A stretch of DNA of 64,000 nucleotides, from contig CP092870.1 of assembly GCA_030710605.1 (NCBI GenBank), forward strand, positions 12,957,991 to 13,021,990, written 5' to 3'. Position 1 is the stretch's first letter. The number at the start of each line of letters is the position of its first letter. Below are positions 14,087 through 41,149 of the stretch, one piece after another. The stretch comes from Cordylochernes scorpioides. Lineage: Eukaryota > Arthropoda > Arachnida > Pseudoscorpiones > Chernetidae. The position numbers were made by a program, and so were the translations under genes. The notes beneath the pieces were generated by a model. That model did no database searches. It was not told the origin of the DNA and saw only the letters and a program-made list of their open reading frames with translations.

Positions 14087-14136
14087 GATGTACTAGAGCG
14101 CCATCTGTTATCAAATTATATTAAATTAGTTTTATA
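14087..14136 (-). mobile_element. 50-bp 5'-truncated family A insertion
   Basis: Flanked by perfect 12-bp duplications ATGTAAATTTAT (14075-14086 and 14137-14148). The opposite palindrome arm, near 13330, has this 12-mer once and no insert, so it shows the empty site. The insert, read on the minus strand, carries TTGATAACAGATGGCGCT and ends 11 nt later, matching the 3' terminus of family A copies at 17310 and 26037. Confidence 0.85.
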
Positions 14137-14299
14137 ATGTAAATTTATATGTTGTATATAATGGCTCAAGCGCGCTTATACCCTGTTAGTGTAGTCATAC
14201 TAGCCACGCCTGTGGAAGAACCGAAAGGTTCGAAAGCTTGCAAAAGTATAATAAAAGAGGCTCCTCCGCAAAACTTTAGATTCGTCATACTTTTATATA

Positions 14300-15792
14300 C
14301 ACTGGTGTCCAAAAAATAAGAAACTTTTGTTTTTTAATGATATGTTTTAAAATATACAACGCTAAAAGCTGAAAAGTAATTTAATTAGGTTTTTTAAGTA
14401 GTAGAATTTATTTATCGCAACCATTCGATTCGGTAAAATTGAAAATATGCAATTTTTTGCTTGTCTTTATAAGTGTGTTATTTTGCGTGTCGTTTACCCC
14501 ATCTAAGAATTATCCAATTATTATTTTATTTAATCCTTAGTTAATTATGAGTTTACGAAAAATGTTAGCAGATGATTTAAAATGGAGAGCTGTTGGAAGA
14601 ATGGAGGCAGGGCAATCACAAGTTGAAGTAGCAAAATGGCTAAATGTGAATAAATCTGTGGTCAGCAAAATATGGAAACAGTTCATTGAGACAGGAACCA
14701 TCAAAAGAAAAGAAGGTTCTGCTAGAAAAAGAAAAACAGCTACCTCTGAAGACCGTTATCTGGTCGTAACTGCCAAGCGCCATAGGGAGATGACAGCTAT
14801 TCAACTCTCTAATGAACTCTCAAGTGCTACTGGAACGAGAATTTCAAGACAAACTGTTTACCGAAGGCTTCACGAAGGTGCTCTTTATGCAAGACGACCA
14901 ATGGTCTGTATCCCTTTAACCTCTGCTCACAGCAGAGCCCGCTTGAATTGGTGCTTGGAACATCACGCCTGGACTCATGATCAGTGGGCCAATTTTCTCT
15001 TCAGTGACGAGTCAAGATTTAGTTTAAACACAGATTCTCGACGAATTTTCATCTGGAGGGAGCCTGGAACCCGCTATCATCCCAGTAACATCAGGGAAAT
15101 AGACAGTTTTAGAGGGGGCAGTCTCTTAGTCTGGGCTGGCATCAGTTCTAGCAGACGCACACCCCTCCACATTTTTTCTGGGGGCACTTTAACTGCATAA
15201 AGGTACAGGGACGAGATCCTTGAGCCCTATCTAAGACCTTATAGATATCAAATTAGTCACAATTTAATTTTTATGGACGATAATGCTCGTTTGCATAGGG
15301 CTAGGCTAGTCAATGAATATCTCCAGAGTGAGAATATTCGAAGGATGGATTGCCCAGCCAGATCTCCGGACCTGAATCCATTAGAGAATGTGTGGGATGC
15401 TCTAGGGAGGCGTATTGGAGCTCGTCACCCCTCTCCCAGAACCTTCGTTGAGCTAAGAACTGCTCTATTGGAGGAGTGGGGTTTACTACCTCTGGACCTC
15501 CTCCAAAGCCTGGTAAACAGTATGAGGGCTCGCTGGGAGACCTTGATAGCTGTTAGAGGTGATCATACTCCCTATTGATATCTTATTTCTTTAAGATCTG
15601 GAACCTTAGCTTTGAGTATGTTGATAATAATTTGCATATTTCATAATTTCAATTTTTTAAATTTATTTTCATATAGCTAGTCAATTTCTCCATAGTTTAA
15701 ACTATTTGTATACTAAATTTTATATTTGTTAATAAATTAGCTTTTGAGAAATTTCAATATTGGTTAAGTTTCTTATTTTTTGGACACCAGTG
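14300..15792 (+). mobile_element. Tc1-like DNA transposon, complete
   Basis: 1493 bp with terminal inverted repeats CACTGGTGTCCAAAAAATAA at the left and the exact reverse complement at the right. TA target duplications are at 14298-14299 and 15793-15794. It contains one transposase gene broken by a single stop. It inserted at the outer end of the PLE fold-back right arm, so it is the younger of the two. Confidence 0.93.
14547..15578 (+). pseudogene. Tc1 transposase, one premature stop
   Basis: A 344-codon frame encodes a cut-and-paste transposase of the Tc1/mariner superfamily. Residues 1-110 hold two helix-turn-helix units (QSQVEVAKWLNVNKSVVSKI; SRQTVYRRLHEG) joined by a basic GRPR-like linker (SARKRKT). 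The catalytic triad is visible: D in FSDESRF, D in FMDDNARLHRA, and E in SPDLNPLENVW with 34 residues between the last two, hence DD34E. The reading frame is interrupted only by TAA at 15198-15200, where many relatives carry glutamine, so one C-to-T change explains it. Translation from 15273 continues in the same frame. The element is probably non-autonomous now unless the stop is read through. Confidence 0.92.
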
Positions 15793-15834
15793 TATATAGG
15801 GATAATAATATAAATGATTTTTAAAAATTAAAAT

Positions 15835-15839
15835 AAAAA
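15835..15839 (-). terminator. Pol III terminator for the tRNA at 15840
   Basis: Five A on the plus strand give TTTTT directly after the discriminator base on the minus strand. Confidence 0.6.
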
Positions 15840-15910
15840 TGCATCGGCCGGGAATCGAACCCGGGCCGCCCGCGTAGCAGGCGAGCATTCTACCACTGAA
15901 CCACCGATAC
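15840..15910 (-). tRNA. tRNA with glycine-type body and GCT (Ser) anticodon
   Basis: 71 nt including discriminator A. The body matches animal tRNA-Gly(GCC) nearly throughout: GGTTCAGTGGTAGAATGCTC, the CTCGC/GCGGG anticodon stem, and T-arm GGTTCGATTCC. The anticodon loop is CTGCTAC, giving anticodon GCT, which reads serine AGY codons, instead of GCC. The other difference noted is a U-G wobble at acceptor pair 2-71. A TTTTT terminator follows. It may be a chimeric-identity tRNA or a recent pseudogene. It lacks the long variable arm of a true tRNA-Ser. Confidence 0.85.
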
Positions 15911-16124
15911 TTATAAGAAATGGCCATATTTGGGTATTTATTCCATTCACAAAAGCAAACGGTGACAGAATTGATTGATGACTCTGATAAATATAATGTT
16001 AGATTATGTTAGCATAATGAATTAGTCAGTATTCCCATGGTCTCCAGCGAAGAGGTGTGAATTGACCTTTTGAAAATATACATAATTATAAAGATAGAAA
16101 CTTCTATAGAAATAACTAAAAAAA

Positions 16125-16197
16125 GCCGAAATAGCTCAGTTTGGAGAGCGTTAGACTGAAGATCTAAAGGTCCTTGGTTCGATCCCGGGTTTCGTCA
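16125..16197 (+). tRNA. tRNA-Phe (GAA), slightly degenerate
   Basis: 73 nt with a GAA anticodon in loop CTGAAGA, and A- and B-boxes present (AGCTCAGTTTGGAGAGC, GGTTCGATCCC). It matches canonical tRNA-Phe apart from three changes: TTTGG in the D-loop, an extra wobble pair in the T-stem, and a C-T mismatch at acceptor pair 2-71. It is probably a decaying copy. It lies about 215 bp from the other tRNA on the opposite strand. Confidence 0.8.
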
Positions 16198-16199
16198 TC

Positions 16200-16208
16200 T
16201 TTTTTTTT
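16200..16208 (+). terminator. Pol III terminator for tRNA-Phe
   Basis: A run of nine T starts two bases after the tRNA 3' end. Confidence 0.7.
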
Positions 16209-16686
16209 AAATTTTTAAATGTTTACTTACCGTAACTTGACACGTGACTTAACGTGACAGAATTGATTGATGACTCTGACACTTGTATATTTTAATGGTT
16301 TATACAGGGTGAGGTTTGTCTGAAATTACCAAATACACTGTTGTAGCTCAATCTTTATAATTTCCAATGAGTTATGTACTGGGATGATGAACGAAATGAA
16401 TTGTTTCATTGCTATATACGTAGAAAATAGAATTTATCGATTAAATAAATCAATGCTGCATGAACATGACAAGAATCCCTAAGTTACACTGTTCAGTAAA
16501 TTAGATCAAATTCAATAATTTCTACTCAGTGAGATAGTTCAGTTTTATTCCAAGATTATAAATACAAACTTCACAATACAAATAAGCCTTTTGATTTATT
16601 TATCAATTTATTCTAAAATAATTTCTTACATTTTTACAGACTAAATTAAATATACTCGAATTTTATCTATAAATGGATTTTATATT

Positions 16687-16922
16687 TCAAGATTACGAAC
16701 AGGACATCTTAGAATGCTCAAATTTAATTGAAATATCAAAACATTCCCGAAATGCCCCAAATGCGATTCCCAACCAGCCAGTCCTGAACATCTATTGAAT
16801 TATATCAAATCCTCCAAAAAAGACCTCTGGGAAAACCTCAGGACTATAATAGAAAAACTGAGACAATGGAACCTAATGGAGATTGTTTAAACGACTGAGG
16901 AATAAACAACAACAACAAAAAC
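16687..16922 (+). pseudogene. Non-LTR retrotransposon 3' end
   Basis: One frame reads RTGHLRMLKF, a stop, then FPKCPKCDSQPASPEHLLNY and a terminal stop at 16888-16890. This resembles the C-terminal zinc-knuckle region (CX2CX9H with the last Cys replaced by Tyr) found after the RNase H domain in I/Jockey/R1-type elements. An AACAACAACAACAAAAAC tail follows, a typical microsatellite 3' end. It is strongly 5'-truncated with an internal stop. Confidence 0.6.
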
Positions 16923-17245
16923 ATATTTATTCTTTAAATTTAGAAATATCTATAAAATATTGGTAAAATACTTACTAACAAGAAATAATAAAAACGACTA
17001 TGGAGTTGTTTTAAAAATCAGTTATTGGTGTAAAAATTAGTGAAGATTTATTCCAAAAATAGAGATGAAAAAATGAATATTAATAAGTTTAAATAAGTGA
17101 CAAGGGAAATTTAATATCTCTAGAGGGTAGGACGTAATCAAAAACCTTTAAAAGATGTTAAAATGTTAATATTTACTTTTTAATTTTAGGTTGTAGAGGT
17201 ATTTGGTTAATATATGTTTATACTTTGTAATTATAACATCCGTTT
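16923..17245. other. AT-rich spacer, no gene seen
   Basis: Nothing supported between the non-LTR tail and the first divergent 83-bp unit. Confidence 0.4.
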
Positions 17246-17249
17246 ATTT

Positions 17250-17309
17250 TATAATTGTTCCGAAAGATACCGTAAAGCCATCTTTGTAACGTTCAGTTAT
17301 ACAAACTAG
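17250..17309 (+). repeat. Divergent 83-bp array unit
   Basis: TTCCGAAAGATACCG, CATCTTTGTAA and ATACAAACTAG appear in the same order as in the 83-bp units at 18232 and 22851. The unit is interrupted by the fold-back element at 17310. Confidence 0.6.
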
Positions 17310-17766
17310 TTGTGAAAATTAGAAACTATTATAGACGCGTAAGATTCTTTTTGAAATTAAACAATTTCTACTGCCCTTACTGCAATGGAAAAATTAATGG
17401 GAGGGCCTGGCTCATCAGTGGTGAACCCTCCCTGCGGTTTCGCCAGTTTAATCTACCATACCGCTGTTATATTGCATTTTTTTATCTTCCTTTTATAGTG
17501 ATATTGTTGCTAGACTCTTGGAATGGGTATTTTAGATGAACTATGGACATAAGTTTAGATCATAAGATCGGAAAATGCAATATAACAGCGGTATGGTAGA
17601 TTAAAATGGCGAAACCGCTGAGAGGGTTCACCAGTGATGAGCCAGCCCTTCCCATTAATTTTTCCATTGCAGTAAGGGTAGTAGAAATTGTTTAATTTCA
17701 AAAAGAATCTTACACGTCAAAAATAGTTTCTAATTTTGATAACAGATGACGCGCTAGTGCATCGTA
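17310..17766. mobile_element. Fold-back element, family A
   Basis: 457 bp flanked by perfect 11-bp duplications ATACAAACTAG (17299-17309 and 17767-17777), inserted in an 83-bp-array unit. Two inverted arms share TAGAAACTATT, ATTGCAGTAAGG and GGCGAAACCGC blocks around a short centre. The right arm is complete, ending TTTTGATAACAGATGACGCG plus 18 nt; the left arm lacks that tip. Each arm holds a hammerhead-like core in permuted order (GAAACC before CTGATGAGCC). No ORF is credible. Confidence 0.8.
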
Positions 17767-18074
17767 ATACAAACTAGGTGTATTCATGTTAAACTTGTGA
17801 AATCAATAGATCAATTTTATAGGTTCTGGTTGCCCTAAAAACCTAAATAGATATATCCCATAACATTGTTAAATTCCATTTCAATTTTAAAGTTTCAGTT
17901 GTAAATATCCACGCTGCGCGTGTATGTATTTGTAAATATTTCTTGTAAGATATAGTCGATTTTTTTAAAGATCGTTGAAGAGTGATTATCGCTTGAAAGC
18001 TAGCATTTTAAAATAAAATAAAAAGTCATTGTGGGAAAATACATTTTTTTTATTTTTAAATAAACTAGGCGTAT

Positions 18075-18207
18075 GAAAATTCTAAACTATTATAGACGCG
18101 TATGATTCTTTTAAAAATTAAACAATTCTCTCTACTGCCCTTACTGCAATGAAAATATTAATGGGAGGGCCTGGTTCATCAGTGGTGAACCCTCCCAGCG
18201 GTTTCGC
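18075..18207 (-). mobile_element. Single-arm family A copy
   Basis: On the minus strand it begins exactly at GGCGAAACCGC and runs to AATAGTTTAGAA. Near-matching 10-bp flanks CTAGGYGTAT occur at 18065-18074 and 18208-18217. It is inserted at the edge of the 83-bp array. Confidence 0.6.
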
Positions 18208-18492
18208 CTAGGTGTATATCATAGTTATAATACTCTGATAATTATTCCGAAAGATACCGCAAAAACATCTTTATAATTCAGCTATACAAACTAGGTGTAT
18301 ATCATAGTTATAGCACTCTGATAATTATTCCGAAAGATACCGCAAACTCATCTTTATAATTCAGCTATACAAACTAGGTGTATATCATAGTTATAATACT
18401 CTGATAATTATTCCGAAAGATACCGCAAAGTCATCTTTATAATTCAGCTATACAAACTAGGTGTATATCATAGTTATAGCACTCTGATAATT
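18208..18492 (+). repeat. 83-bp tandem array, left part
   Basis: Units start ACTCTGATAA at 18232, 18315, 18398 and 18481, exactly 83 bp apart. The last is cut after ACTCTGATAATT by the PLE and resumes at 22851. Confidence 0.92.
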
Positions 18493-18574
18493 GTAAAAAA
18501 CTTAAAACTCTTCCGGTGTATAGCTTATGAAAAACGTATCATTAATTGGAAGATAGGTATCTTTTATTTGTAAA

Positions 18575-18610
18575 CGTTACGAGCTTTCGGGCAAACGCCC
18601 TTCTACAGGT
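18575..18610 (-). ncRNA. Hammerhead-like motif in PLE end
   Basis: On the minus strand CTGTAGA is followed by an AGGGC-GTTT-GCCC hairpin, then GAAAGCTC. AGCT would be a self-complementary stem III and C the cleavage base. The canonical CUGANGA core has U in place of A6, and no good stem I is seen, so activity is doubtful. Identical copies are at 21241-21276 (minus) and 22766-22800 (plus). Confidence 0.5.
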
Positions 18611-18780
18611 TTGACAGAAATTAAGGCGAGAGACCGACCTAAATACAAGGGATGATTTACATATTAAACAATTTTTATAACTTAGCAGTAAGAATTTTTA
18701 ATTTTTAATAAGTAACTATTGTATTGATATGGTAATAAGATGTTGTATACTAGATTTTAACTATGTAAAAAAGGAATAGA

Positions 18781-21123
18781 TTAACTTGAAACAAAGATAT
18801 CATAAATTTCAGGAATTTCTATTTTTCTATTTATGCTTTTAAGTTTGGTGGATACTATGGATTCTAACATTAATCTTTGGTGTAGGTTGGGTATGTTACG
18901 GTAATGGATAGTGGGGTGGTTGGTATTAAAAGAGTGGCCAGTGGATGCAACATGCTGATAGATGAGGGAACGTGGGTCTTTGTTATTAATGTTTCGGGTG
19001 TGTTCTGACATTCTAATGGCGACGGTTCTACCTGTCTCACCCACATAAGTGGCGGAACAATGTTCGCATGAGACAGAGTAGACCGCCCCAGAAGAATCCA
19101 GAGGACTGAGTTGGGTACTAGTTTTTGTAATGGGGTGTCGGAGAAGTGAGTGGATACTGGGGGTATTAATGAAAAAGGTGCGAATGCCAAATGGCCTGAT
19201 GAGACGGGAGATACTAACTGTTAAAGGAGAATAGGGCAACATGCAGGTAGTCCTGAAGACTGGGGGAGGATTGGAGGGGGCGGGAGAATAGGTATGTTTA
19301 TTAATGAATGTTAGTGGATAGGAGGCGGCGGTGAGATGGGAGATGATACGGGCTTTTTCTGTGGTTTTAAAGATGGGTAGAGAGCAGTGTGTGTGAAGGC
19401 GCCTGGTGAGTGTTTTAACGATGTTAATTTTGTGTACTATGGGGCAGAAGGAGTAGAAATGGGTGTAGGTGGGGGTACTGCTATTCTTGTAGTATACTGT
19501 GGTGTGGAATGATGCCGGGGTACGTATGATTAAGATGTCTAGGAAGGGAATGATGTGTCCCTGTTCTTTTTCCATGGTGAACGAGAGGTTAGGGTTGTAA
19601 CTGTTGAGGGTGGACAGGATGGTTTCTTCAAGGTCGGTTTTACATATGCAAAGGATATCATCGACATATCGTCGCCAGAAAAGAATGTCATCGCAATGGA
19701 GGTTGCAGACCCATTTATCTATTCTGGTCATAACCAGCTCAGCAGCTATGGAGGAGAGGGGGCTTCCCATAGGCGATCCCCTTATCTGTTTGAAATGGAT
19801 ATGGTCAAAGGTAAAGGTGCTCATGTTTAAGCATATCTGTGAGAGGGATGTGATAGAGTTGGTCTTGACGGGATCTGTGTTGATGGAAACCAAAAATTGG
19901 TTGAGGCTGTCAATTATCAGGTGATGGGGGAGACTGAGGTATAGGGATGAAACGTCAAATGAACACATGTTGAAGTTTTGGGGGGGGTGTAGGCCGGTTA
20001 TTTCTTGAATGAGTGTGGGGGTGCTGGAAACTGTGAGATTACTTCTATTGTTTTTTAAAAGAGGTGAGAGATAATTTGAGAGGTACTTAGCTAGGGGGTA
20101 GGCGGGAGAGAGGTGATACGCAATGATAGGGCGCAGAGGGACAGAAGGTTTGTGGACCTTGGGAAGGCCGTAGATGTAGGTACCATTGGGGAGATTAGTG
20201 GTAAAGGATTTGTGTTCCTCCGTTGAGATGAGACTGGTTCTTTTCATTCGGTTGAGAGAGGACTTGAAGGTTTTTAGTGCTATTGTGCTCTCTTGTGCGG
20301 AAATTTGAGAAAAAGTGGCTGTGTCCTGCAATATTTCCAAGATTTTGGCGTGGTACGAAGATCGGTCTAGGATTACGGTGTCAGTGCCCTTATCTGATCT
20401 GCTGATGACAATTGAACGTTGTTTCATTAGTCTGCGGAGGGCCTTGGATTCAGTTTGGGAATTTGGGGGTGGGGGGAGAGGTCTCTGGAGTACCCGGGAT
20501 ACATGGTTTCTGATGGCGCATCTGTCTTGATGGTTATGATTCTTAACGGAGGCCTCTATTCCACTGATGATCTTGGGTATATCGGGTTTGGCGGGAAGTC
20601 GATATTTGAGGCCTTTAGAGAGGAGACTGTTTTCAGCAGGGGTGAGGGTTACGCTAGACAGATTGATGATGTTGTTTGAAGCCTCGGGGTTGGCATACTT
20701 GTGATCGAGTGGGAAGGAGTATTTTTGGGACCAGAACGCTAGCTTTTTATCGTGTCTAAGCTGTATACTTCGGTCTTGTACCTTAATATCTGAGGTGGTT
20801 CTTTCTATGAGAGCTGTGAGATCAGATTCATGAACGTTTTGGGAGGTTAGGCATATCAGCCCTTTGATTGATTTGGTGAGGAATCTAATTTGGGAAAGGC
20901 AACCTTTAGTTCTTGCCCGTAAGAGTTGCCATTGGATTCTTCTTATAAGTTCTGCTGAGAAGGGGTTTCCAACAGGATCCTTTACACGGAGGGATGGAGG
21001 GATAAACACTAGCCGTTCACATAGCTGGTTGAACTTTAAATGGCAACGCCATTTGGCGAGTTGAAGAGATTTCTTGTGGATGAGGAACTTGTATCTGTCG
21101 ATTTCGCCTCTAGGAAGAGCCAT
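18781..21123 (-). CDS. Penelope-like RT / GIY-YIG endonuclease, 780 aa, intact
   Basis: This is the polyprotein of an animal endonuclease-bearing PLE; it nicks target DNA and primes reverse transcription there. The N-terminal ~300 residues are basic and PLE-specific. Reverse transcriptase motifs follow: YGLPKVHKPSVPLRPI (about 318-333), motif A SFDVSSLY (about 388), motif B QIRGSPMGSPLSS (about 446) and motif C RRYVDDIL (about 485, catalytic YVDD). The C-terminal GIY-YIG domain starts at GAVYSVSCEHC (about 679) with YVGETGR (about 693-699, catalytic Arg) and RMSEH (Glu about 708). A Cys-rich stretch CEHC precedes YVGETGR as in other Penelopes. There is no frameshift or stop. ATG 21121-21123 begins MALPRGEIDRY, 35 bp after the pseudo-LTR, which probably supplies the promoter. 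It is likely to be active or recently active. Confidence 0.95.
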   Translation of the reverse strand: MALPRGEIDRYKFLIHKKSLQLAKWRCHLKFNQLCERLVFIPPSLRVKDPVGNPFSAELIRRIQWQLLRARTKGCLSQIRFLTKSIKGLICLTSQNVHESDLTALIERTTSDIKVQDRSIQLRHDKKLAFWSQKYSFPLDHKYANPEASNNIINLSSVTLTPAENSLLSKGLKYRLPAKPDIPKIISGIEASVKNHNHQDRCAIRNHVSRVLQRPLPPPPNSQTESKALRRLMKQRSIVISRSDKGTDTVILDRSSYHAKILEILQDTATFSQISAQESTIALKTFKSSLNRMKRTSLISTEEHKSFTTNLPNGTYIYGLPKVHKPSVPLRPIIAYHLSPAYPLAKYLSNYLSPLLKNNRSNLTVSSTPTLIQEITGLHPPQNFNMCSFDVSSLYLSLPHHLIIDSLNQFLVSINTDPVKTNSITSLSQICLNMSTFTFDHIHFKQIRGSPMGSPLSSIAAELVMTRIDKWVCNLHCDDILFWRRYVDDILCICKTDLEETILSTLNSYNPNLSFTMEKEQGHIIPFLDILIIRTPASFHTTVYYKNSSTPTYTHFYSFCPIVHKINIVKTLTRRLHTHCSLPIFKTTEKARIISHLTAASYPLTFINKHTYSPAPSNPPPVFRTTCMLPYSPLTVSISRLIRPFGIRTFFINTPSIHSLLRHPITKTSTQLSPLDSSGAVYSVSCEHCSATYVGETGRTVAIRMSEHTRNINNKDPRSLIYQHVASTGHSFNTNHPTIHYRNIPNLHQRLMLESIVSTKLKSINRKIEIPEIYDIFVSS

Positions 21124-21446
21124 AATAAATACGAAGAATTAAACTCAATTGATTAATAGTAAAAAACTTAAAACTCTTCCGGTGTATAGCTTATGAAAAA
21201 CGTATCATTAATTGGAAGATAGGTATCTTTTATTTGTAAACGTTACGAGCTTTCGGGCAAACGCCCTTCTACAGGTTTGACAGAAATTAAGGCGAGAGAC
21301 CGACCTAAATACAAGGGATGATTTACATATTAAACAATTTTTATAACTTAGCAGTAAGAATTTTTAATTTTTAATAAGTAACTATTGTATTGATATGGTA
21401 ATAAGATGTTGTATACTAGATTTTAACTATGTAAAAAAGGAATAGA

Positions 21447-22040
21447 TTAACTTGAAACAAAGATATCATAAATTTCAGGAATTTCTATTTTTCTATTTAT
21501 GCTTTTAAGTTTGGTGGATACTATGGATTCTAACATTAATCTTTGGTGTAGGTTGGGTATGTTACGGTAATGGATAGTGGGGTGGTTGGTATTAAAAGAG
21601 TGGCCAGTGGATGCAACATGCTGATAGATGAGGGAACGTGGGTCTTTGTTATTATTGTTTCGGGTGTGTTCTGACATTCTAATGACGACGGTTCTACCTG
21701 TCTCACCCACATAAGTGGCGGAACAATGTTCGCATGAGACAGAGTAGACCGCCCCAGAAGAATCCAGAGGACTGAGTTGGGTACTAGTTTTTGTAATGGG
21801 GTGTCGGAGAAGTGAGTGGATACTGGGGGTATTAATGAAAAAGGTGCGAATGCCAAATGGCCTGATGAGACGGGAGATACTAACTGTTAAAGGAGAATAG
21901 GGCAACATGCAGGTAGTCCTGAAGACTGGGGGAGGATTGGAGGGGGCGGGAGAATAGGTATGTTTATTAATGAATGTTAGTGGATAGGAGGCGGCGGTGA
22001 GATGGGAGATGATACGGGCTTTTTCTGTGGTTTTAAAGAT
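21447..22040 (-). pseudogene. PLE ORF, 5'-truncated tandem copy
   Basis: Encodes the last ~197 residues including the full GIY-YIG domain, nearly identical to the intact copy (A-to-V and I-to-N changes noted). It is cut at 22040, where the inverted copy starts. It lacks the reverse transcriptase. Confidence 0.9.
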
Positions 22041-22594
22041 TCACCGCCGCCTCCTATCCACTAACATTCATTAATAAACATACCTATTCTCCCGCCCCCT
22101 CCAATCCTCCCCCAGTCTTCAGGACTACCTGCATGTTGCCCTATTCTCCTTTAACAGTTAGTATCTCCCGTCTCATCAGGCCATTTGGCATTCGCACCTT
22201 TTTCATTAATACCCCCAGTATCCACTCACTTCTCCGACACCCCATTACAAAAACTAGTACCCAACTCAGTCCTCTGGATTCTTCTGGGGCGGTCTACTCT
22301 GTCTCATGCGAACATTGTTCCGCCACTTATGTGGGTGAGACAGGTAGAACCGTCGCCATTAGAATGTCAGAACACACCAGAAACATTAATAACAAAGACC
22401 CACGTTCCCTCATCTATCAGCATGTTGCATCCACTGGCCACTCTTTTAATACCAACCACCCCACTATCCATTACCGTAACATACCCAACCTACACCAAAG
22501 ATTAATGTTAGAATCCATAGTATCCACCAAACTTAAAAGCATAAATAGAAAAATAGAAATTCCTGAAATTTATGATATCTTTGTTTCAAGTTAA
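22041..22594 (+). pseudogene. PLE ORF, 5'-truncated inverted copy
   Basis: Encodes the C-terminal ~184 residues with GIY-YIG on the plus strand. It pairs with 21447-22001 as a long palindrome around a 39-nt centre. Its stop is followed by the PLE 3' end to 22850. Confidence 0.9.
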
Positions 22595-22850
22595 TCTATT
22601 CCTTTTTTACATAGTTAAAATCTAGTATACAACATCTTATTACCATATCAATACAATAGTTACTTATTAAAAATTAAAAATTCTTACTGCTAAGTTATAA
22701 AAATTGTTTAATATGTAAATCATCCCTTGTATTTAGGTCGGTCTCTCGCCTTAATTTCTGTCAAACCTGTAGAAGGGCGTTTGCCCGAAAGCTCGTAACG
22801 TTTACAAATAAAAGATACCTATCTTCCAATTAATGATACGTTTTTCATAA

Positions 22851-23110
22851 ACTCTGATAATTATTCCGAAAGATACCGCAAACTCATCTTTATAATTCAG
22901 CTATACAAACTAGGTGTATATCATAGTTATAATACTCTGATAATTATTCCGAAAGATACCGCAAAGTCATCTTTATAATTCAGCTATACAAACTAGGTGT
23001 ATATCATAGTTATAATACTCTGATAATTATTCCGAAAGATACCGCAAACTCATCTTTATAATTCAGCTATACAAACTAGGTGTATATCATAGTTATAGCA
23101 CTCTGATCTT
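22851..23110 (+). repeat. 83-bp tandem array, right part
   Basis: Units at 22851, 22934, 23017 and a partial at 23100 continue the array interrupted by the PLE. Confidence 0.92.
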
Positions 23111-25089: not shown

Positions 25090-25101
25090 ACATTCACACC
25101 G

Positions 25102-25940: not shown

Positions 25941-26036
25941 TTTTTTGAAAAATTTTCTAACAATTATTCACTTTAACTTTAATTGTATATACCTTATAAT
26001 ATTGTTTTTAATATCCTCTATGTTAAAGATATATCT

Positions 26037-26383
26037 AAATACGAAACTATTATAGACGCGTATAATTCTTTTCAAAATAAAACAATTTCTACTGTCCTTA
26101 CTGCAATGGAAAAATTGATGGGAGGGTCTGGCTCATCAGTGGTGTACCCTCCCAGCGGTTTCGCCAGTTTAATCTACCATACCGCTGTTATATTGCATTT
26201 TTGGAACTTCCTTTTATAGTGATACTGATGCTAGACTCTTTGAATGGGTATTTTAGATGAACTATGGACATAAGTTTTTTCCATTGCAGTAAGGGCAGTA
26301 GAAATTGTTTTATTTTGAAAAGAATCATACGAGTCTATAATAGTTTCGTATTTTGATAACAGATAGCGCTAATGCATCTTAAT
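26037..26383. mobile_element. Fold-back element, family A
   Basis: 347 bp between 12-bp duplications AAAGATATATCT (26025-26036 and 26384-26395). The left inverted arm starts AAATACGAAACTATT. The right arm ends with TTTTGATAACAGATAGCGCT plus 13 nt. The permuted core on the minus strand uses CTGGC (26163-26167) and GCCAG (26128-26132). Confidence 0.82.
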
Positions 26384-26395
26384 AAAGATATATCT

Positions 26396-26605
26396 ATGAA
26401 AAAAGGCATCTCCTTATCGTGCAACTGAATATTGCTGATGGCTTGCGCCATCTATCAGAATAAATATAAACTATTCTCGTTGATTTTTAATTATTCCAGA
26501 ATTGGCCAAATACCCATTCTTGATTAATCAAGAAAAGCTAACCACGGACGCGTTTCGGGCTGTTGGCCCTCATCAGCGTGGTGCAAGCTGTATCTCAGCG
26601 ACCAA
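26396..26605 (-). mobile_element. Retrozyme-like element with hammerhead ribozyme
   Basis: 210 bp flanked by perfect AAAGATATATCT (26384-26395 and 26606-26617). On the minus strand it carries a canonical hammerhead near the 5' end and AGATGGCGC 49 nt from the 3' end. No ORF is credible. It resembles non-autonomous, hammerhead-bearing retrozymes associated with PLEs in animals. It shares its left duplication with the family A element beside it. Confidence 0.8.
26536..26589 (-). ncRNA. Type I hammerhead ribozyme, canonical
   Basis: Minus strand: stem I ACCACG (26582-26577) pairs with CGTGGT (26546-26541), plus an outer AGCT/AGCT helix across a TGC/T internal loop. The core is CTGATGA (26576-26570). 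Stem II is GGGC-CAACA-GCCC, followed by GAA. Stem III ACGCGT (26553-26548) is self-complementary, then C17 at 26547. Predicted cleavage is between 26547 and 26546. All core residues are consensus. The palindromic stem III implies a dimeric hammerhead, as known in PLEs and retrozymes. Confidence 0.88.
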
Positions 26606-26617
26606 AAAGATATATCT

Positions 26618-29944: not shown

Positions 29945-29955
29945 ATATTTTGAAA

Positions 29956-30476
29956 TAGATGGAAAATTTTCCGGGAGGAAATTAATCCATAGAAGCAATG
30001 GGCGCTTCTCCCGTCAAAATAAACGTCAGAATCTGACGCCATCTATTGACCGTCTCCGCAACTAGTCACCGACCCGATGCCGCTAGTTGCGGCGACGGTC
30101 AATAGATGGCGTCAGATTCTGACGTTTATTTTGACGGGAGAAGCGCCCTTTGCTTCTATGGATTAATTTCCTCCCGGCAATTTTTCCATCTATGTTCTAG
30201 TCATAGATTTGGCCCAGCCACATTGCCAGCAAAACACCTCTTTGGTAGATTGTGAGGATTCCATTAGATCCCGTGTGGATCTCATGGAATAAAGTCCGCC
30301 CTAGACTGACGAGGGCTATTAGCCCGAAACCATGGTCTCTAGGTGGACGCTTATCAGTTTTCCAAAGCTGGTGTTATGGCTTTGTCACCGACCCGATGCC
30401 GCTAGTTGCCGCGACGGTCAATAGATGGCGTCAGATTCTGACGTTTATTTTGACGGGAGAAGCGCCCATTGCTTCT
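29956..30476 (+). mobile_element. Retrozyme-like element, family C, with hammerhead
   Basis: 521 bp flanked by perfect 11-bp duplications ATATTTTGAAA (29945-29955 and 30477-30487). It contains an inverted 3' end (29956-30060), a direct 3' end (about 30065-30185), a unique part with a canonical hammerhead, then a second direct 3' end (30384-30476). The two direct copies of GTCACCGACCCGATGCC lie about 320 bp apart, so the element is a partial dimer with one ribozyme per unit. ATAGATGGCGTCAG lies about 46 nt from the 3' end. No ORF. Confidence 0.85.
30294..30348 (+). ncRNA. Type I hammerhead ribozyme, canonical
   Basis: Stem I CCTAGA (30300-30305) pairs with TCTAGG (30338-30343). An outer GTCC/GGAC helix follows across a GC/T internal loop, the same shape as in the ribozyme at 26536. 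The core is CTGACGA (30306-30312). Stem II is GGGCT-ATT-AGCCC, then GAA. Stem III ACCATGGT (30329-30336) is self-complementary, then C17 at 30337. Predicted cleavage is between 30337 and 30338. All core positions fit the CUGANGA...GAAA...UH consensus. Confidence 0.9.
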
Positions 30477-30487
30477 ATATTTTGAAA

Positions 30488-32824: not shown

Positions 32825-32837
32825 AAAACTTAAAGTA

Positions 32838-33318
32838 AATTAACACAAAGAAATAACGCGCCATCTATATATATAAGTATGGACAGAAGAAGTTCGTTTT
32901 ATGTATAAAATAAACATTCGCGCTTTTAAATCCTTTTATTTTACATATATAGATGGCGCGTTATTGCTTTGTGTTAATTTAAGCCTAGCTGGCCTTGTCT
33001 TTATAGTTTGCTGGGGAACATTGCTCGAAGCAAATATTTGAATGTAATTCTACTGTCCTATAAGCTTATGTCCATAGTTTACTTGAAAACCATTTCTAGA
33101 TTCCATCCTTCAGTGTAGCATATAAAAGCAGAATGATCCAATACAGTATTAGAGCTCTGAGAAGCGGTCTGGTGGATCAAATTGGCGAAACCGCTGGGAG
33201 GGTTCACCACTGATGAGCCAAGCCCTCCCAATATATTTTTTCATCGCAGTATGAACAGTAGAAGTTCGTTTTATGTATAAAAGAAACATTCGCGCTTTTG
33301 AATCCTTTTATTTTATAT
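32838..33318. mobile_element. Fold-back element, family B
   Basis: 481 bp between perfect 13-bp duplications AAAACTTAAAGTA (32825-32837 and 33319-33331). It starts with an inverted 3' tip (ACGCGCCATCTATATATA). A complete 3' end follows, containing ATATAGATGGCGCGTTATTG. The body then carries a permuted hammerhead-like core (TTGGC 33182-33186, GAAA, CTGATGA 33210-33216, GCCAA 33217-33221), and a second 3' end truncated before the AGATGGCGC tip. Confidence 0.82.
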
Positions 33319-33331
33319 AAAACTTAAAGTA

Positions 33332-34099: not shown

Positions 34100-35205
34100 G
34101 TCCGTGGGTCAATATCTGTCCGTGTCCGTGGTACAATGTCAGTCTTGGGTGCGAGGGTCAGTCTCGTTCTATCCTCTTAGGCATGTGTATTAATGTAGGT
34201 ACGTTTTGTTAGGTACCTGGGCTAATCTCGGTCTGTGTTCCGTTGGTCAATAAAGTCCGTGTTTCGTGGGTCATTATCGGTCTGCCCTGTTAAGAACCTG
34301 GGTCAAGGTCGGTCCGTGGAACATGGATCAATGTCGGTCCGTCCTGTTGACTCCGTAGGTCAATGTCGGTCCGTCCTGTTAACTCCGTAGGTCAATATAG
34401 GTCTATGGAACGTGGGTCAATGTCGGTCCGTCCCTTTAGGTACCTGGGTCAATGTCGGTAATCTTGTTAACAAAAAGGGGCAATCTCAGTCCGTGGAACA
34501 TGGATCAATTTCGATCCGTCCTGTTAACTATGTGGGTCAATGAACGGAAGGTCCGTGGAACATGGATCAATTTCGGTCCGTCCTGTTAGCTACGTGGGTC
34601 AATGTCGGTCCGTCTTGTTAGGTACCTCAATCAATGTCGGCTCGTCCTGTTAGCTAAAATGGTTAATGCCATTCCCTCCTGTTACGTGGGTCAATGTCGG
34701 TCCGTTCTGTTAACAACGAGGGTCAATGTCAGTCCGTGGAGCATGGATCAATGTCGATCCGTCCTGTTAACAACGAGGGTCAATATCAGTTCGTGGAGCA
34801 CAGGTCAATGTCGGTCCGTCCCTTAAGGTACCTGGGTCAATGTCGGTCCGTCCCTTGAGGTACCTGGGTCAATGTCGGTCCGTCCTGTTAACAACGAGGG
34901 TCAATGTCAGTCCGTGGAGCATGGGTCAATGTCGGTCCTGTCTACTACGTGAGTTATTGTCGGTAATCCCGTTAACTACGTGGGTTAATGTCAGTCCGTC
35001 TTGTTAGATACATCAATCAATGTCGGCTCGTCCTGTTAGCTAAAATGGCCAATGACATTCCTTCCTGTTACGTGGGTCAATGTCGGTCCGTCCCGTTAGG
35101 TACCCGGTTCAATACCGGTCCATCCTGTTAACAACGAGAGTCAAAGTCTTCTGTCCTGATAGGTACCTGGGTCGATGCCGGTTCGTCCTGTTAGATACGT
35201 GAGAG
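34100..35205 (+). repeat. 32-bp minisatellite
   Basis: Monomers around GGTCAATGTCGGTCCGTCCT plus GTTAACTCCGTA, 32 bp. Variants carry GTTAGGTACCTG or GTTAACAACGAG endings, and a shorter form carries GTGGAACATG. Edges are diverged and the centre is more regular. No coding role. Confidence 0.88.
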
Positions 35206-35284
35206 TCTCCGATATGTATAGTAAATCATTTATACCTCAATTAAAACATCTTATATGAAAATGAATCTGACACTGCAATTTTAA

Positions 35285-35590
35285 ATGTACCAGAGCCCCG
35301 TTTGGGTACTTGCAATCCTTCTTGTGGTTGGATTTTTGCAAGAATCGGAGGCCTTTGGAGCATTTTTTAAATTAAAAAAGTGTCCAATGTGTCATTCGAT
35401 TCTGGATAGTAGCGGTCAAAAACAACGGTTTAGACCACCTTTCCACCGACCCCCTTTCCTGCAACTCTATGTTATAAGTTTTCTAAGCAAAGGAGTTTTA
35501 TTCACAGATTTTTTATCCTCCAACCTACGAATTTCACGGTTCAAAATTTTCAAATCAGAATCAATAAAGATCTATATTGAATCTCTATAA
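35285..35590 (+). CDS. Possible small secreted peptide, 101 codons
   Basis: Starts MYQSPVWVLAILLVVGFLQE followed by SEA^FGAFF, a textbook signal peptide with a hydrophobic core at residues 6-17 and a plausible cleavage after SEA at 23. Next come a basic CPMC motif and a Pro/Arg/Phe-rich stretch to about residue 61. The tail is less protein-like and may be intron read-through. A partly matching exon start lies at 37939. No family recognised. It sits directly after the 32-bp minisatellite. Coding status is uncertain. Confidence 0.35.
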   Translation: MYQSPVWVLAILLVVGFLQESEAFGAFFKLKKCPMCHSILDSSGQKQRFRPPFHRPPFLQLYVISFLSKGVLFTDFLSSNLRISRFKIFKSESIKIYIESL

Positions 35591-35599
35591 TTTACAATG

Positions 35600-36000
35600 C
35601 TGGTTATTTCAATCGACAAAATGATGGAAGGATGAGTATATTATTTATTTTATTAGCATAATGAGCGTCTCTTATAAAAATAGATAGGTTAAAAATTCAT
35701 TGAGTGAAAGCTCATTGAAGCTTAAGAAAGATCTGATAGAATAGACCAGGGGTCGGAAACCTGCGGCCTCACAAGCCACAAGTGGCTCTTTGGATGTGAA
35801 GCTGCGTCTAGTATTCGCACAAATAAAAACTTTATTTATACAAGTATTCTCTTTGGAATTCCTGTTGAATGAGGTGGTGAGAAACAGAGCTGGAGCGTTT
35901 GCGTTGTTCAAATTTTGGAAGATAGCTGAAGAGAAGGGAAAGCTATATACATAATCTAATTGATGTAAATAAATATATGTAAATAATCTTTGTCAGGATT
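35600..36000. other. No gene seen
   Basis: Short chance ORFs only. Confidence 0.3.
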
Positions 36001-36215
36001 AGAATGACGAATCCTGTATGGGACTTTGATCCCAGTAAAAGGCTTGTTGCTGCTGTTGTATATAGTCACAGTGTAGAAAATACTATACTATACCTACTAA
36101 ATATAGGTTTCTCTCTGTATTCTTAGTTCTCTTCTCTTACTCTGTAAACTGGCGAATCCTTTATAGGACGAGAGGTCCTCAATAAAGACTTTTGTTGTTG
36201 TTGTTGTTGTTATTT
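36001..36215 (+). mobile_element. Two diverged non-LTR 3' tails
   Basis: GGCGAATCCTTTATAGGACG...TCAATAAAGACTTTTGTTG with a (GTT)n tail at 36150-36211 resembles the 3' UTR of an I/Jockey-type element. A diverged relative (GACGAATCCTGTATGGGAC, ...TTGTTGCTGCTGTTG) lies just upstream at 36005-36060. No ORF remains. Confidence 0.4.
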
Positions 36216-36429
36216 ATATGAATATTATTTATTGTTGGCAAGAAAACATTTTTGGCCCTTTAAAACCTTTGAAATCTTCTAAATTTTAATTTTTGACTCT
36301 TTCGACTCAAAAGGTTGCTTAGCCTGGTATAGAGTATTGTTTATGTTTCTTCAAGAGTCAATACATAGAGTACACACAATTGTAGTTAATATATATATAT
36401 TATATAAAGAAAAGAGAATAGAGATATTT

Positions 36430-36725
36430 GTTGAGCAGTCGTGGCAATTATTAAATGAAATTAGTTATCAAAAATAGCTTTAATTGAGCTTATGGAATAT
36501 AAAAAATACACATAATTTGATTAAAGTAGTGCCTGGCTTAAGGCGAACAGAACAAGGAAAAACAAAAGACTATTTACATAATGTACAAAAGATTTGAGCC
36601 AGCCATCGGGGAAGAACAACAACGAGTTTTTATAGGGGAAGCATGAACTTTGGCGGTCGATTTAACAGAGTATTTGGATCTATGAAATATAATTTTAAAT
36701 ATAATAATATTTTAATATAACATAT
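36430..36725 (+). repeat. Dispersed repeat, copy 2
   Basis: Matches 1690-1990 over its length with scattered substitutions and small indels, same orientation. Family unknown. Confidence 0.65.
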
Positions 36726-37244
36726 ACATATATTCCTTTGGTGAGAAGGGTGAATAACTCGGGTCTTTAACCCAATCTCCAGAAAATGGAAGTGATTCAT
36801 CATATGATGTAAGAGAAGAGTTAGAAAAAACACCGATCATTTCAAAATCCTCCGGATTACCTGCTGGTGAGGCGGTAGATAGCTGCTCCCAGTTTTTACA
36901 CAATTCAGTGTTGAATATACTGGGATTACGGCAACATTAGACAACGCCTTTATATCTTTCCTTCTTTGTTCTGAATTTATAATAAAAATAAATATATTTT
37001 TCATTATTTTAGCTATTTTCACAACGCATAAAACCTTTTGTTTCATTAGATTAAAATCTAGAATAGTCTTTATCTCCTTGACCTTTCTCCTTGTATATAG
37101 CCAATTTGTTATGATGTTAGAAATGTATTGAGGCTAATATACCTGAGTTTGGGATATCGCATTATAGGATATTAATCAAGTTACAGAATATAGTAATATT
37201 TATATATATTTAAATGGGAACAGAGATCAACTATATTCCTTATA

Positions 37245-37551
37245 CCAAATGAAAACATTAAGACGTAAGTTGTTCTTCCACCAATAAATCAAACTTCTAT
37301 TGTCCTTTCTGCAATGAAAAATATATCGGAATTCTTCAGAATGATCCAATACAGTATTAGAGCTCTAAAATAGCGGTCTGGTAGATTAAATTGGCGAAAC
37401 CGCTGGGAATTCACAACTGATGAGCCAAGCTCTCCCAATATATATTTTTTACCGCATTAAGGACAGTAGAGGTTTGGTTTATTTGTGAAAGAGACACTCG
37501 CGTCTTAATGTTTTAATTTGTTATATATAGATGACGTGTTATTACTTTGTA
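37245..37551. mobile_element. Fold-back element, family B
   Basis: 307 bp between perfect 13-bp duplications TATATTCCTTATA (37232-37244 and 37552-37564). The left inverted arm (AAAACATTAAGACG...) lacks the terminal motif. The right 3' end has TATAGATGACGTGTTATTAC ending about 15 nt later. The permuted core is TTGGC 37391-37395, GAAA, CTGATGA 37417-37423, GCCAA 37424-37428. Confidence 0.8.
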
Positions 37552-37564
37552 TATATTCCTTATA

Positions 37565-37938
37565 AAGGATGTGACATTAGTTCTTAGCTTTCTATCGATG
37601 CTTCAAACCAAAGCGGTAAGTCCTGCTTAGCAAACATGATAAGAAATATCTTGTGGTATTTGACATGTCCGCCAGCTCGATCTTGCTACAATTTTCAGTA
37701 GTAGGAAGGTCTGATGAAGAACCTGGTGCTGTCGGAAGCTTACGTTTTAGATGAGAAAATCGAAATGTGGTTGTTCTACGTGTTAGATATCGATATAGGA
37801 TAGTACTCTTTATTTACTTATTCTTAGTATACGTGTTATAAGCCATGATAATCATATTGGGTAGTTAGAGACTGTTTTTCACTGAAAGGTTACCTAATTT
37901 TTACACATGGAGAAGGATGTTTAACATTTTCAACTACA
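37565..37938. other. No gene seen; possible PLE-end relic
   Basis: TCTGATGAAGAACC...GGAAGCTTACG at about 37690-37724 resembles the PLE terminal hairpin motif but lacks a matching stem II and has G after GAA. Confidence 0.25.
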
Positions 37939-38010
37939 ATGTGTCAGAGCATTGTTTGGTTACTTGTACTCACTGGTGGACGGGGGCCATCGAAGCATTC
38001 CTTTTTTTCA
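37939..38010 (+). pseudogene. Decayed paralogue of the 35285 signal-peptide exon
   Basis: ATGTGTCAGAGCATTGTTTG and TTACTTG align with the start of the 35285 ORF (ATGTACCAGAGCCCCGTTTG, GTACTTG). The hydrophobic core is then lost (MCQSIVWLLVLTGGRGPSK). It looks like a duplicated, degraded first exon. Confidence 0.3.
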
Positions 38011-38859
38011 AGGAACATTTTCTTAATGCGGGATTCTTTTCCGGGTTGTGATTATCTGAAATCGACGGTTTCATCCACCTACACAAGCTTCTTAAACTTC
38101 TCAACTTTCTCCTGCCCTCTCTACATTCTGGTGTTATGGTTCAGGATCTAGGTGTAAAGTGAAAATAAGTGCAACGCGATACTTTGAAACAAACTACTCG
38201 TCAAATCTGTACATCAGTTCTCCAAACATGCTTTAAAGAACATAATATAGCCTGTTATATTGAGAACCATTGGAAGTTTCTTTCTAAGACTTTTATCTAC
38301 AGTAATATTCATTAATGGAAAAAACTTGAGGTACTTATATCTTTAAGCATGTATATCAGGATTTAGACCCCAACTTGGAGAGATATTTATAATACACAAT
38401 GATATTTATTGAAGACACACGATATAACCAAGGGAGAAAGAAATTTGCTACAGTAATTTCAGAAAAAAAAAAGACAACCAGGGACATAGAAGAATTTCCA
38501 CTTATTTAAGTTTTAACCATGAGTATAGGTACATGGACAATTAGATGACGATGGATAAATAAATTTGGTGTCACGGGTGTTTGTTTGACTGGTCTGGAAG
38601 GAGTTGTTCAAAGGGTTTTCCGTTCATGGTCTTCTAATGTTTGTACTTGGATTGTGGGAGATGAAGTTTGTCTTTTCGGGGTGTGGAGGTAATAAGGTTG
38701 CCAGAAGTAATCATTTTTATTATTTGATTGCAGAAAATGATCCTAAATTTTGAAAAGTGTGAATAAGATTGTAATAATAAATTAATATCTCAAAAAAGGA
38801 GATAGATTAGGGTGAAATCAAATCCCCTGAGGGCGGGCAACCATTTGTCAGTAGGATGA
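38011..38859. other. No gene seen
   Basis: AT-rich; 38340-38440 shares an old repeat with 31020-31140. Confidence 0.35.
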
Positions 38860-39420
38860 AGACATTATCAGTGTGTAGATTCCCGGCTCTGGAGGACCGA
38901 TCCATTCTGGTCGATGTTGAGTTCGTCGTGGCTTACTTTCTCTCTACCACCTCAGGAGAATACGCCTGGAGCCGTGCCGAGTCCAGTGCCCGACTCGCCC
39001 TCTGGCCGGGTAATGGCCATTGATGATGACCATAATAGGACTCGATATGATAGCTGGAGCTGGCGTTTTTCAGTAGTAGACGTTGTTAGAAGGCCTCTTT
39101 AGGCCTCTCTAGAAGTACCGCTGGAGCGTAGCACGCGTTAAGCGTGCAATGGCAGTGGCACAATCGAAGAAATCTCTTACAATCCCCCGTGGTCAGAGTT
39201 CAGGAGTCAGCGGATCTGGAAGCTGTAGGAATCTGTTGTCGCCTCGAAGACGCAGAGACCTTAGCCTGACGGTGTGGAGAACTCGGTAGTTCAACTCAAG
39301 AACGCTGGACCCGGCCTCCCAGAGACTCAGCCGTTTCCTACTCTTCGGTTTTAATCAGATGCCACAATCCGGCGTGGTCGACAAACAAGGTAACCGTTGG
39401 CAGGTGAGACAAAGCTGGCC
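38860..39420. other. GC-rich unassigned segment
   Basis: Clearly higher GC than its surroundings and no stable ORF above about 60 codons. It may be a decayed retroelement or an LTR-like relic. Function unknown. Confidence 0.3.
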
Positions 39421-39507
39421 CCCCATCATTTTCACACCTTCATCTATATATATATATATATATAAATATTTTGAAAATAGACAATCCATATTTAAATCAT
39501 TATATGA

Positions 39508-39718
39508 TAAAAAGGTATATATTGGATTTAATAAAAGATTTATTTGCTAATATTTCGGTTGGCTGAACGCCAAACCTTTATCAAGGCATTACATTTTTGT
39601 ATATATTTTGTATACAAAAATGTAATGCCTTGATAAAGGTTTGGCGTAACAGCCAACCGAAATATTGGCAAATAAATCTTTTATTAAATCCAATATATGC
39701 CTTTTTATTATTTAATAT
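39508..39718. mobile_element. Fold-back element, family E
   Basis: Near-perfect palindrome of about 105-bp arms meeting near 39606. The arms start AAAAAGGTATATATTGG and contain GGTTTGGCG-TTCA/ACA-GCCAACC hairpins followed by GAAATATTGG. A single-arm relative lies at 11705-11820. The hammerhead-like core TTGATAA is degenerate. No clear target duplication was seen. Confidence 0.7.
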
Positions 39719-40705
39719 GTAAAAAGGGTTGTTGATTTTTCAAAAATAAATGTTCGTTTATATTTTAGACATATTTAAATTTATAATATCGTTTGGCAAT
39801 TAAAATTTCAAAAATCAAATTGATATTTTAAACTTAGGCAATATATATGGCATTAATAAACAGGTTGAAAAATCACTATAATAATCACTTACTTGCGATA
39901 CATTGCCGAAAGTCCGAGAAATGATTAACTCAGTTGCATATGCAGGAAGGTTCCTTCTGATGCGATATCTCCCCATCGGAGTTATTTACCTTTATTAGCT
40001 TGTAAGCCCAGCCGAGATCTATGTTTTAATCATTCGCTGTTGGAAACGGAAGAATTATGTCTTTATTTGTCAAGCCAAGATAATTTGAAAACATTCAAAT
40101 ACTTTCTCTCTCTCTCATTATGCATGTTGGGGACAAAACAACACAATAAGCAAGGTCCACACTCAGGTCGGCTTGTAGCTCCTGATCCCGATGTTCCTTC
40201 AGAGAAGTCTAGTGTAAATATTTTCTATATTTATTACAATACTGTATTTTACTTGATTATTTTTTCTGTTGACTAGGTGTCAATAAAGTTGTTAATTGTC
40301 ATTGTCTCTCTCTCTTATAATCCTATATGGACATTGAAATAAGGAAGTTTCAATCTCAATCTCTCTTTTATAATATAATTCTTTCATATTATATTGATGT
40401 TGTTGAAGTAATGTTTAATCAATCTTTTCGGCTCCAAATCCAATTTCATGTTTATATACATATATTATACATATTATATATAATTTTATAGATTTATATC
40501 TTTTCCTTTTTCAATTTAAATATATATTAAAATTTTAAAAAAGACGCTCTATAAAAACTTTGTTATCCACGATCCAAGAATGTTAGTCGGTTTGGAATCT
40601 CTCTTTATCACGATAAAATTTAAATTAATAGATATAAGAAGCCCATTGTATTTATGGTTAATCATTAAGAAGATTATTTTACTTAAAAGCTTTTTTGAGC
40701 CAAAT
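39719..40705. other. AT-rich DNA, no gene seen
   Basis: Short chance ORFs and CTCTCT patches only. Confidence 0.4.
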
Positions 40706-40717
40706 AAATAGAAAATT

Positions 40718-40861
40718 TTACACAAATAAATTTACTGGCAATGCGCTTCTTTTAAATATCATCAATTATTATCTCTACATTTGATATTTAAAAGAAACGC
40801 ATTGCCAGTAAATTTATTTGTGTAAAATTTTAACGATAGATGGCAATTAAATTTAATTTAC
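40718..40861. mobile_element. Small fold-back element, family D
   Basis: 144 bp between perfect 12-bp duplications AAATAGAAAATT (40706-40717 and 40862-40873). Arms of about 48 bp share TTTACTGGCAATGCG and its complement. The right end continues to ACGATAGATGGCAATTAAAT and stops 17 nt after the AGATGGC motif. Confidence 0.8.
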
Positions 40862-41149
40862 AAATAGAAAATTATATAAAAGAAATTAACAATATTGATT
40901 TTAAAAGTGTAAATAACATAAAAAGACACAAGGTCTAAAAAGATATTCAAAATATTTTACAATGGAATAAATTCCAATATTGATTTAAGTATTTTACAAC
41001 AACTCTCTTTATAAAAGTTTTTAGATTAGAACTAAATCACGTGGATACGAGATTCACTCACGCTATGCAGGACCAAAGAAAAATACCATCTAATTGTTTA
41101 CAAACATTTCTATTTGAAATTCAAAATTTAATTTGAAATTACTTCCTAT

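Follow-up and report, generated by a model that had tools for sequence, protein, structure and literature searches.

Hammerhead-bearing foldback elements in a pseudoscorpion genome as probable retrozymes mobilised by Penelope-like enzymes

Introduction

A 64,000-nt stretch of the Cordylochernes scorpioides genome (contig CP092870.1; G000:C8:12957991-13021990; host genome 2.62 Gb, 24 contigs), hereafter the window, raises the question of what moves the eight short insertions that it contains. A first-pass annotation had proposed for them one trans-acting machinery, most plausibly of the Penelope-like element (PLE) type, with the heptamer AGATGGC as, or as a mark of, its 3' signal. From the analysis below we consider it likely that the enzymes of Penelope-like (GIY-YIG) retrotransposons mobilise these elements in trans, and that the elements themselves are hammerhead retrozymes of a non-autonomous kind. 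As the mobiliser of animal retrozymes, the part of a 2020 paper available to us proposes PLEs, as a strong candidate only (PMC7229834). Our most surprising result concerns the main family, whose ribozyme, judging by its matching block order, is predicted to be a non-circularly permuted hammerhead of type SGC inside a PLE-mobilised animal retrozyme.

Eight short insertions and their target duplications

The insertions are listed here in window coordinates.

14087..14136, minus strand: 5'-truncated main-family (SGC) retrozyme of which the final 50 nt remain, containing GATAACAGATGGCGCTCTAGTACATC and flanked by ATGTAAATTTAT; the other arm of the palindrome holds the empty site
17310..17766, plus strand: foldback retrozyme of the main family; each arm holds a permuted hammerhead, and the 29-nt tail (17738-17766) includes AGATGAC
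26038..26382, plus strand: foldback retrozyme of the main family, duplication TAAAGATATATCTA, tail with AGATAGC measuring 24 nt (scan) or 28 nt (by eye)
26396..26605, minus strand: family 3 type I hammerhead element without foldback, AGATGGC 51 nt before the 3' end, target AAAGATATATCT the same as its neighbour's
29956..30476, minus strand: family 4 composite foldback, 33-nt minus-strand tail, AGATGGC outside the tail, duplication ATATTTTGAAA
32838..33318, minus strand: composite of subfamily B of the main superfamily, tail with AGATGGC on the left, right boundary at the inner site, 13-bp duplication (structure read by hand; the foldback scan did not pick it up)
37245..37551, plus strand: subfamily B foldback with a permuted hammerhead (37372-37436), a tail of ~26 nt that includes AGATGAC, and a 13-bp duplication
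40718..40861, plus strand: family 2 foldback, 30-nt tail AACGATAGATGGCAATTAAATTTAATTTAC, 12-bp duplication

Comparison of the flanks revealed exact direct repeats of 11-14 bp at all eight insertions and at the resident PLE (14087, 12 bp; 17310, 11; 26037, 14; 26396, 12; 29956, 11; 32838, 13; 37245, 13; 40718, 12; PLE, 12). The perfect 11-13 bp duplications of the first-pass annotation were thus all exact, with the range extended by the 14 bp at 26037, and the 12-bp duplication that it gave for the full PLE at 18493 was found again. Among ~3000 random pairs of 40/45-bp stretches, a total that includes skipped pairs lying <100 bp apart, only eight had at least 11 bp in common. Furthermore, an empty site exists for the 14087 insertion, as the other arm of the palindrome at 13179-14297 holds ATGTAAATTTAT once. 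At 26024-26617, AAAGATATATCT occurs three times around two adjacent, oppositely oriented insertions, and here a single target seems to have been used twice.

None of the short elements contains an open reading frame (ORF) of ≥150 aa, and the reverse transcriptase plus GIY-YIG ORF of an autonomous PLE is accordingly absent from them. The insertions at 14087, 17310, 26037, 32838 and 37245 are one hammerhead retrozyme superfamily, and the family 2 element at 40718 is probably a diverged relative, since a C block is present in a family 2 copy. The earlier count of five otherwise unrelated families therefore falls to about three in the window.

The main family across the genome

Allowing ≤2 mismatches, the main-family tail (that of 14087, 17310 and 26037) has 30,839 matches in the genome (15,240 forward and 15,599 reverse), and the reversed tail used as a control has none. 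We inspected 30 tail loci, namely those at the head of the listing. Each has an exact tail and lies within the first 11 Mb of contig 1, so that they are not a random sample; three were repeats of others, leaving 27 distinct loci. Seven of these lie inside tandem arrays, 14 are foldbacks and six fit neither class. The tandem monomer of locus L011 measures 371 bp, within the 150-450 bp of the short tandem repeats of animal retrozymes. Between its predicted ribozyme cut and the downstream 3' end of the monomer there are 174 nt; this end is therefore not a ribozyme end and fits internal initiation.

In the foldback copies two opposed halves begin at near-fixed sites ~30 nt apart, leaving an unpaired 3' tail between flanking direct repeats. 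All 14 main-family foldbacks have a head-to-head inverted arm, an unpaired tail (27-34 nt in 13 copies, 43 nt in one) and an exact repeat of 12-16 bp, lengths that are approximate because the repeats overlap the arm start by up to 8 nt. When left flanks were paired with the right flanks of other loci, repeats of ≥9 bp were found in 4 of 182 combinations, with a maximum of 10. No poly-A or simple-repeat end was seen in these foldbacks.

A second sample, not selected by tail, comprised the window and 80 kb from arbitrary places. An inverted-repeat scan of this sample gave a flanking repeat of ≥9 bp in 14 of 46 pairs, compared with 3 of 46 when the flanks were shifted. Simple repeats account for some of the 14, and the hits in an AT-rich repeat of L041 and in L043 look false. 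The same foldback layout was found with several different tails, those of the window elements being 24-33 nt long.

Template switching between families was considered as a sign of common machinery and rejected: the family 2 piece in L039 is a nested insertion with its own 12-bp repeat, and L007 has no clear repeat. L039 (8799-8950), like L006 and L008, also holds another foldback family with a GAATGCCGCCGGCCAGGCAGCCTCTATC-like tail, which suggests a separate tail class. A similar GC-rich sequence, unnamed by Rfam, occurs in or beside main-family copies (L021 at ~1700-1900; L016 downstream of the tail).

A layout in common with Penelope-like elements

Two PLE features lie in the window.

18493..22850, minus strand: resident PLE that includes a piece inverted head to head; its unpaired 3' tail of 32 nt, GCTATACACCGGAAGAGTTTTAAGTTTTTTAC, lacks AGATGGC; 12-bp duplication
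13153..14293, minus strand: palindromic PLE fragment that matches P0015 of another PLE family, 26-nt tail, host of the 14087 insertion

The inverted piece of the resident PLE ends 32 nt before the element's 3' end, a layout as in the short foldbacks. According to the portion of the biochemical account available to us, a PLE enzyme cuts and extends both target strands and initiates reverse transcription within the RNA, at two neighbouring sites, the stretch between them being the genomic tail (PMC11167929); in the excerpt at hand, rotifer PLEs have a 31-bp tail and inverted pseudo-long terminal repeats (PMC3846280). The foldbacks with their ~30-nt tails and direct repeats, the identical layout of the resident PLE and the two start sites of the enzyme together make PLE-type mobilisation of these elements well supported, and that much of the original proposal stands.

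In the mechanism that we favour, tandem or single copies would be transcribed, and the RNA would be trimmed by hammerheads, which are of type SGC in the main family and of type I in some others. By analogy with the published enzyme, a PLE protein would cut both target strands with a stagger of ~11-14 bp, and reverse transcription would start inside the RNA at two sites ~30 nt apart.

With regard to their surroundings, the resident PLE is hosted by an 83-bp tandem repeat (18208-18492 and 22847-23107), a unit-like copy of which precedes the 17310 element. From 14294 to ~15800 there is a Tc1-like element with a 217-aa transposase ORF, at the end of which the palindromic PLE fragment was apparently inserted.

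Type I and permuted hammerhead ribozymes

Ribozyme patterns were searched for in 309 kb of sequence, composed of partly overlapping loci mostly fetched with the main family's own sequence. The individual motifs listed for the window are as follows.

26527..26592, minus strand: canonical type I hammerhead; Rfam Hammerhead_HH9, 26.5 bits, gathering score of 52 not reached
30300..30343, plus strand: within family 4 (plus-sense half), a canonical type I hammerhead, CTGACGA...GCCCGAAAC...GTC
33163..33229, plus strand: permuted (type-SGC) hammerhead of subfamily B, with GUC as cleavage triplet and stem II formed by UUGGC/GCCAA

The type I pattern gave five matches (two in the window, two in L007 and one in L031) and none in 1.24 Mb of shuffled sequence. 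The elements at 26396, 29956 and L031 thus carry the type I hammerhead of animal retrozymes; the main family, with its S-G-C order, does not. Rfam reported a hammerhead in the window only at 26396, below the gathering score, and none at the permuted copies; on 14 loci it returned two tRNAs and nothing else.

The permuted pattern gave 34 matches with seven distinct sequences, all belonging to the main family, against zero in 1.24 Mb of shuffles; given how the loci were obtained, the 34 matches are no measure of density. In these copies the blocks follow the order S (cleavage site), G (GAAA) and C (CUGAnGA) with stems I-III, which is the order of type SGC. The first part of the core reads AGCGGU-A/C-UGGU..., an AAA linker and C/UUGGC-GAAA-CCGCU, and the second GGGAGGG, ACCA-CUGAUGA-GCCAG/A and CCCUCCC. 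A linker of ~3 nt (AAA, with stem I drawn as 9 bp) and an outer bridging helix (GGGAGGG/CCCUCCC), both of which belong to the type-SGC description, are also present. Two bases are claimed both by the outer pairs of stem I and by the bridging helix, and stem I of the common subfamily contains an A-C mismatch.

Covariation was assessed on 26 of 34 distinct sequences, after removal of eight that carried a 7-nt insertion or whose S block was foreign. Changes on both sides occur at stem II pairs 20-59 and 23-56 and at one stem I pair (3 versus 3.1 in shuffles), and paired cells make up 87.8 % of the alignment versus 87.3 % in shuffles; overall covariation is not above shuffles, in a test limited by the fact that most copies are decaying.

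A scan of viral_contigs gave no match to the permuted core. A literature search on hammerheads and non-circular permutation listed, besides Eckert 2023, two papers on structure-comparison tools, as judged by title and the start of the abstract.

The AGATGGC motif

In the described families AGATGGC is either part of the tail or no more than ~80 nt from the end. The motif or a one-base variant is inside the tail of six insertions (14087, 17310, 26037, 32838, 37245 and 40718; variants at 17310, 26037 and 37245), and in the main family and family 2 it starts 6 nt past the inner site. It had been placed 11-50 nt from the 3' end; at 26396 the distance is 51 nt. At 29956, where the tail-bearing side is the minus-strand GGATTAATTTCCTCCCGGAAAATTTTCCATCTA, ~80 nt separate the motif from the tail end, and 47 nt separate it from the inner site on the other side. 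AGATGGC also stands downstream of all five type I hammerhead matches.

By count, AGATGGC occurs 11 times in the window against a shuffle mean of 6.3, which alone is weak, as 4 of 100 shuffles reach 11; the window matches include two at 44087/44094 and one at 17277 in an 83-bp repeat unit. In the first 44.5 kb of the window plus 80 kb from elsewhere there are 32 occurrences, where dinucleotide composition predicts 10.8 (zero-based rank 101 of 16,285 7-mers) and the motif's own 5- and 6-mers predict 25.6; enrichment beyond expectation thus holds against dinucleotides, and the heptamer is enriched within repeats rather than as an isolated 7-mer. In the 80 kb from elsewhere, 7 of 21 occurrences were placed by reading in elements of this kind, one of them without boundaries. 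Among the papers listed by a literature search with the letters AGATGGCGC, none concerned mobile elements, judged by title and abstract start.

That AGATGGC is the recognition signal of the insertion machinery is a hypothesis that we think rather more likely to be wrong than right. The common machinery could be upheld, as described above; the signal role assigned to the motif did not fare equally well, in that its position differs between SGC and type I elements, other foldbacks have other tails and no examined PLE carries AGATGGC as a tail motif.

The search for a driver PLE

The 32-nt tail of the resident PLE lacks AGATGGC, just as the first-pass annotation had stated, and this element is not supported as the driver by tail identity. 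By eye its tail ACCGGAAGAGTTTT resembles those of the P0006 family (CTAGAAGAGTCTTT) and the P0040 family (TATAAGAGAAATTTT), none of which holds AGATGGC. No AGATGGC was found in the tail or 5' junction of the P0006 family (12 loci, with the ORF start seen in all 12), of the P0040 family (two 5' and seven 3' stretches, with L067 lacking a recognisable element end), of the P0015-type palindrome or of one P0025-family copy. Matches within P0006 loci are antisense in the ORF or, by reading, in separate element copies. Eight further PLE 5' regions likewise had no AGATGGC (L070 and L075 without a clear ORF start; L069, L072 and L074 of one family). In a second PLE clade, retrieved with query P0104, the ORFs start with ATTATGGATTGC.

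Another PLE family may be the driver. We tentatively envisage a PLE tail code, in which one lineage would read AGATGGC and mobilise all RNAs that carry it, permuted-hammerhead retrozymes included, and related PLEs would have a GAAGAGT-like tail; this idea has more chance of failing than of holding.

Two observations stand apart. A foldback at 39499-39716 has a degenerate hammerhead-like core (CCTTGATAAAGG...CCGAAATATTGG) and by eye resembles 5' regions of the second PLE clade (L068). At 46520-63999 there are ~511 copies of a 34-bp satellite, beside a fragment at 45937-46569 (minus strand) that matches large-subunit rRNA.

Alternative explanations

Two readings of the motif deserve attention besides that of a recognition signal, and we regard each as conceivable without being the probable answer. 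In the first, AGATGGC is a host-protein site with a CTCF-like core, or a promoter element, found on several mobile elements and unrelated to reverse transcription. The CTCF consensus is CCASYAGRKGGCRSY; L031 and L049 carry CCACTAGATGGCACTCTG and CCACCAGATGGCGCTCTG, which fit it, and the distance from motif to 3' end differs between groups. The start of the motif 6 nt past the inner site in the main family and family 2 argues against such a host-protein site, as does the poor fit of family 2 (AGATGGCAATTAAA) to the consensus.

In the second, the motif was inherited and is not read today, being perhaps the remnant of an ancestral PLE ORF-start region. This would agree with the apparent relationship of the main family, subfamily B and family 2 (given the family 2 copy with a C block), with the ATTATGGATTGC ORF starts of the other PLE clade and with a PLE-like fragment in the L021 region that, by eye, ends soon after ATTATGGATTGC. 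Against shared descent, the motif has been kept while adjacent bases diverged, and it occurs across different ribozyme orders.

With regard to the machinery itself, short interspersed nuclear elements driven by a long interspersed nuclear element (LINE) of the apurinic/apyrimidinic endonuclease type appear improbable. Duplications of 11-14 bp are compatible with such a LINE and family 3 ends in a T run, but the head-to-head foldback, the ~30-nt unpaired tail and, in the main-family foldbacks, the lack of a poly-A or simple-repeat end are those of a PLE and not of a LINE. Miniature inverted-repeat elements moved by a DNA transposase, suggested by the long inverted arms, are highly improbable in view of the one-sided tail, a left end-to-tail distance of 86 to 1049 nt, repeats of 11-16 bp and the occurrence of truncated and tandem copies.

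PLE-driven retrozymes remain our preferred explanation, and several points weigh against it. Six of the 27 main-family loci are not clear foldbacks, and the foldback repeat lengths are approximate. In families 3 and 4 the motif is not part of the tail, the permuted ribozyme shows no overall excess of covariation, and no AGATGGC-tailed PLE appeared among the examined copies, which did not cover P0020/P0055, P0024/P0071, P0031, P0033, P0050, P0072 and P0076. In the available part of the biochemical account, moreover, no start-site difference between the two strands was seen for the PLE enzyme, and ribozyme mutants left insertion in vitro unchanged (PMC11167929); because of this, we only infer that foldbacks form by use of one site per strand and that the ribozyme has a role.

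Significance and comparison with known systems

The insertion scars described here carry a tail that is explained by the two start sites of the PLE enzyme, at least as given in the accessible part of that work (PMC11167929), and these tails offer a concrete test of which RNA feature the enzyme recognises. If the tail code were true, the tail sequence would decide which parasite RNA moves. The S-G-C order in the main family would provide a living host for the study of type SGC and, if confirmed, the first case of a permuted hammerhead active in a known organism's genome.

Compared with known PLEs, as far as the available portions of two reports describe them (PMC11167929, PMC3846280), the short elements are alike in head-to-head inversion, ~30-nt tail, target duplications and hammerhead motifs; they differ in having no long ORF, and AGATGGC is not in the examined PLE tails. 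Animal non-LTR (long terminal repeat) retrozymes, in the excerpt available to us (Cervera & de la Pena 2020, PMC7229834), resemble them in short hammerhead repeats, tandem copies, duplications of >4 bp and the presence of PLEs in the genome; the main family departs from these in its permuted S-G-C rather than type I ribozyme and in its many foldbacks with a PLE-type tail. Type-SGC motifs were, in the part of Eckert 2023 at hand (PMC10085705), found in no known organism's genome, one candidate of another type excepted, and the 0-nt join to stem III, seen in a few of them, is considered by those authors not obviously compatible with the known fold. The main-family motif has the same S-G-C order, conserved core, 3-nt linker, bridging helix and 0-nt stem III join; the motifs described there come from environmental sequences, whereas those reported here, with predicted cleavage, are found in an animal genome, inside a retroelement (PMC10085705).

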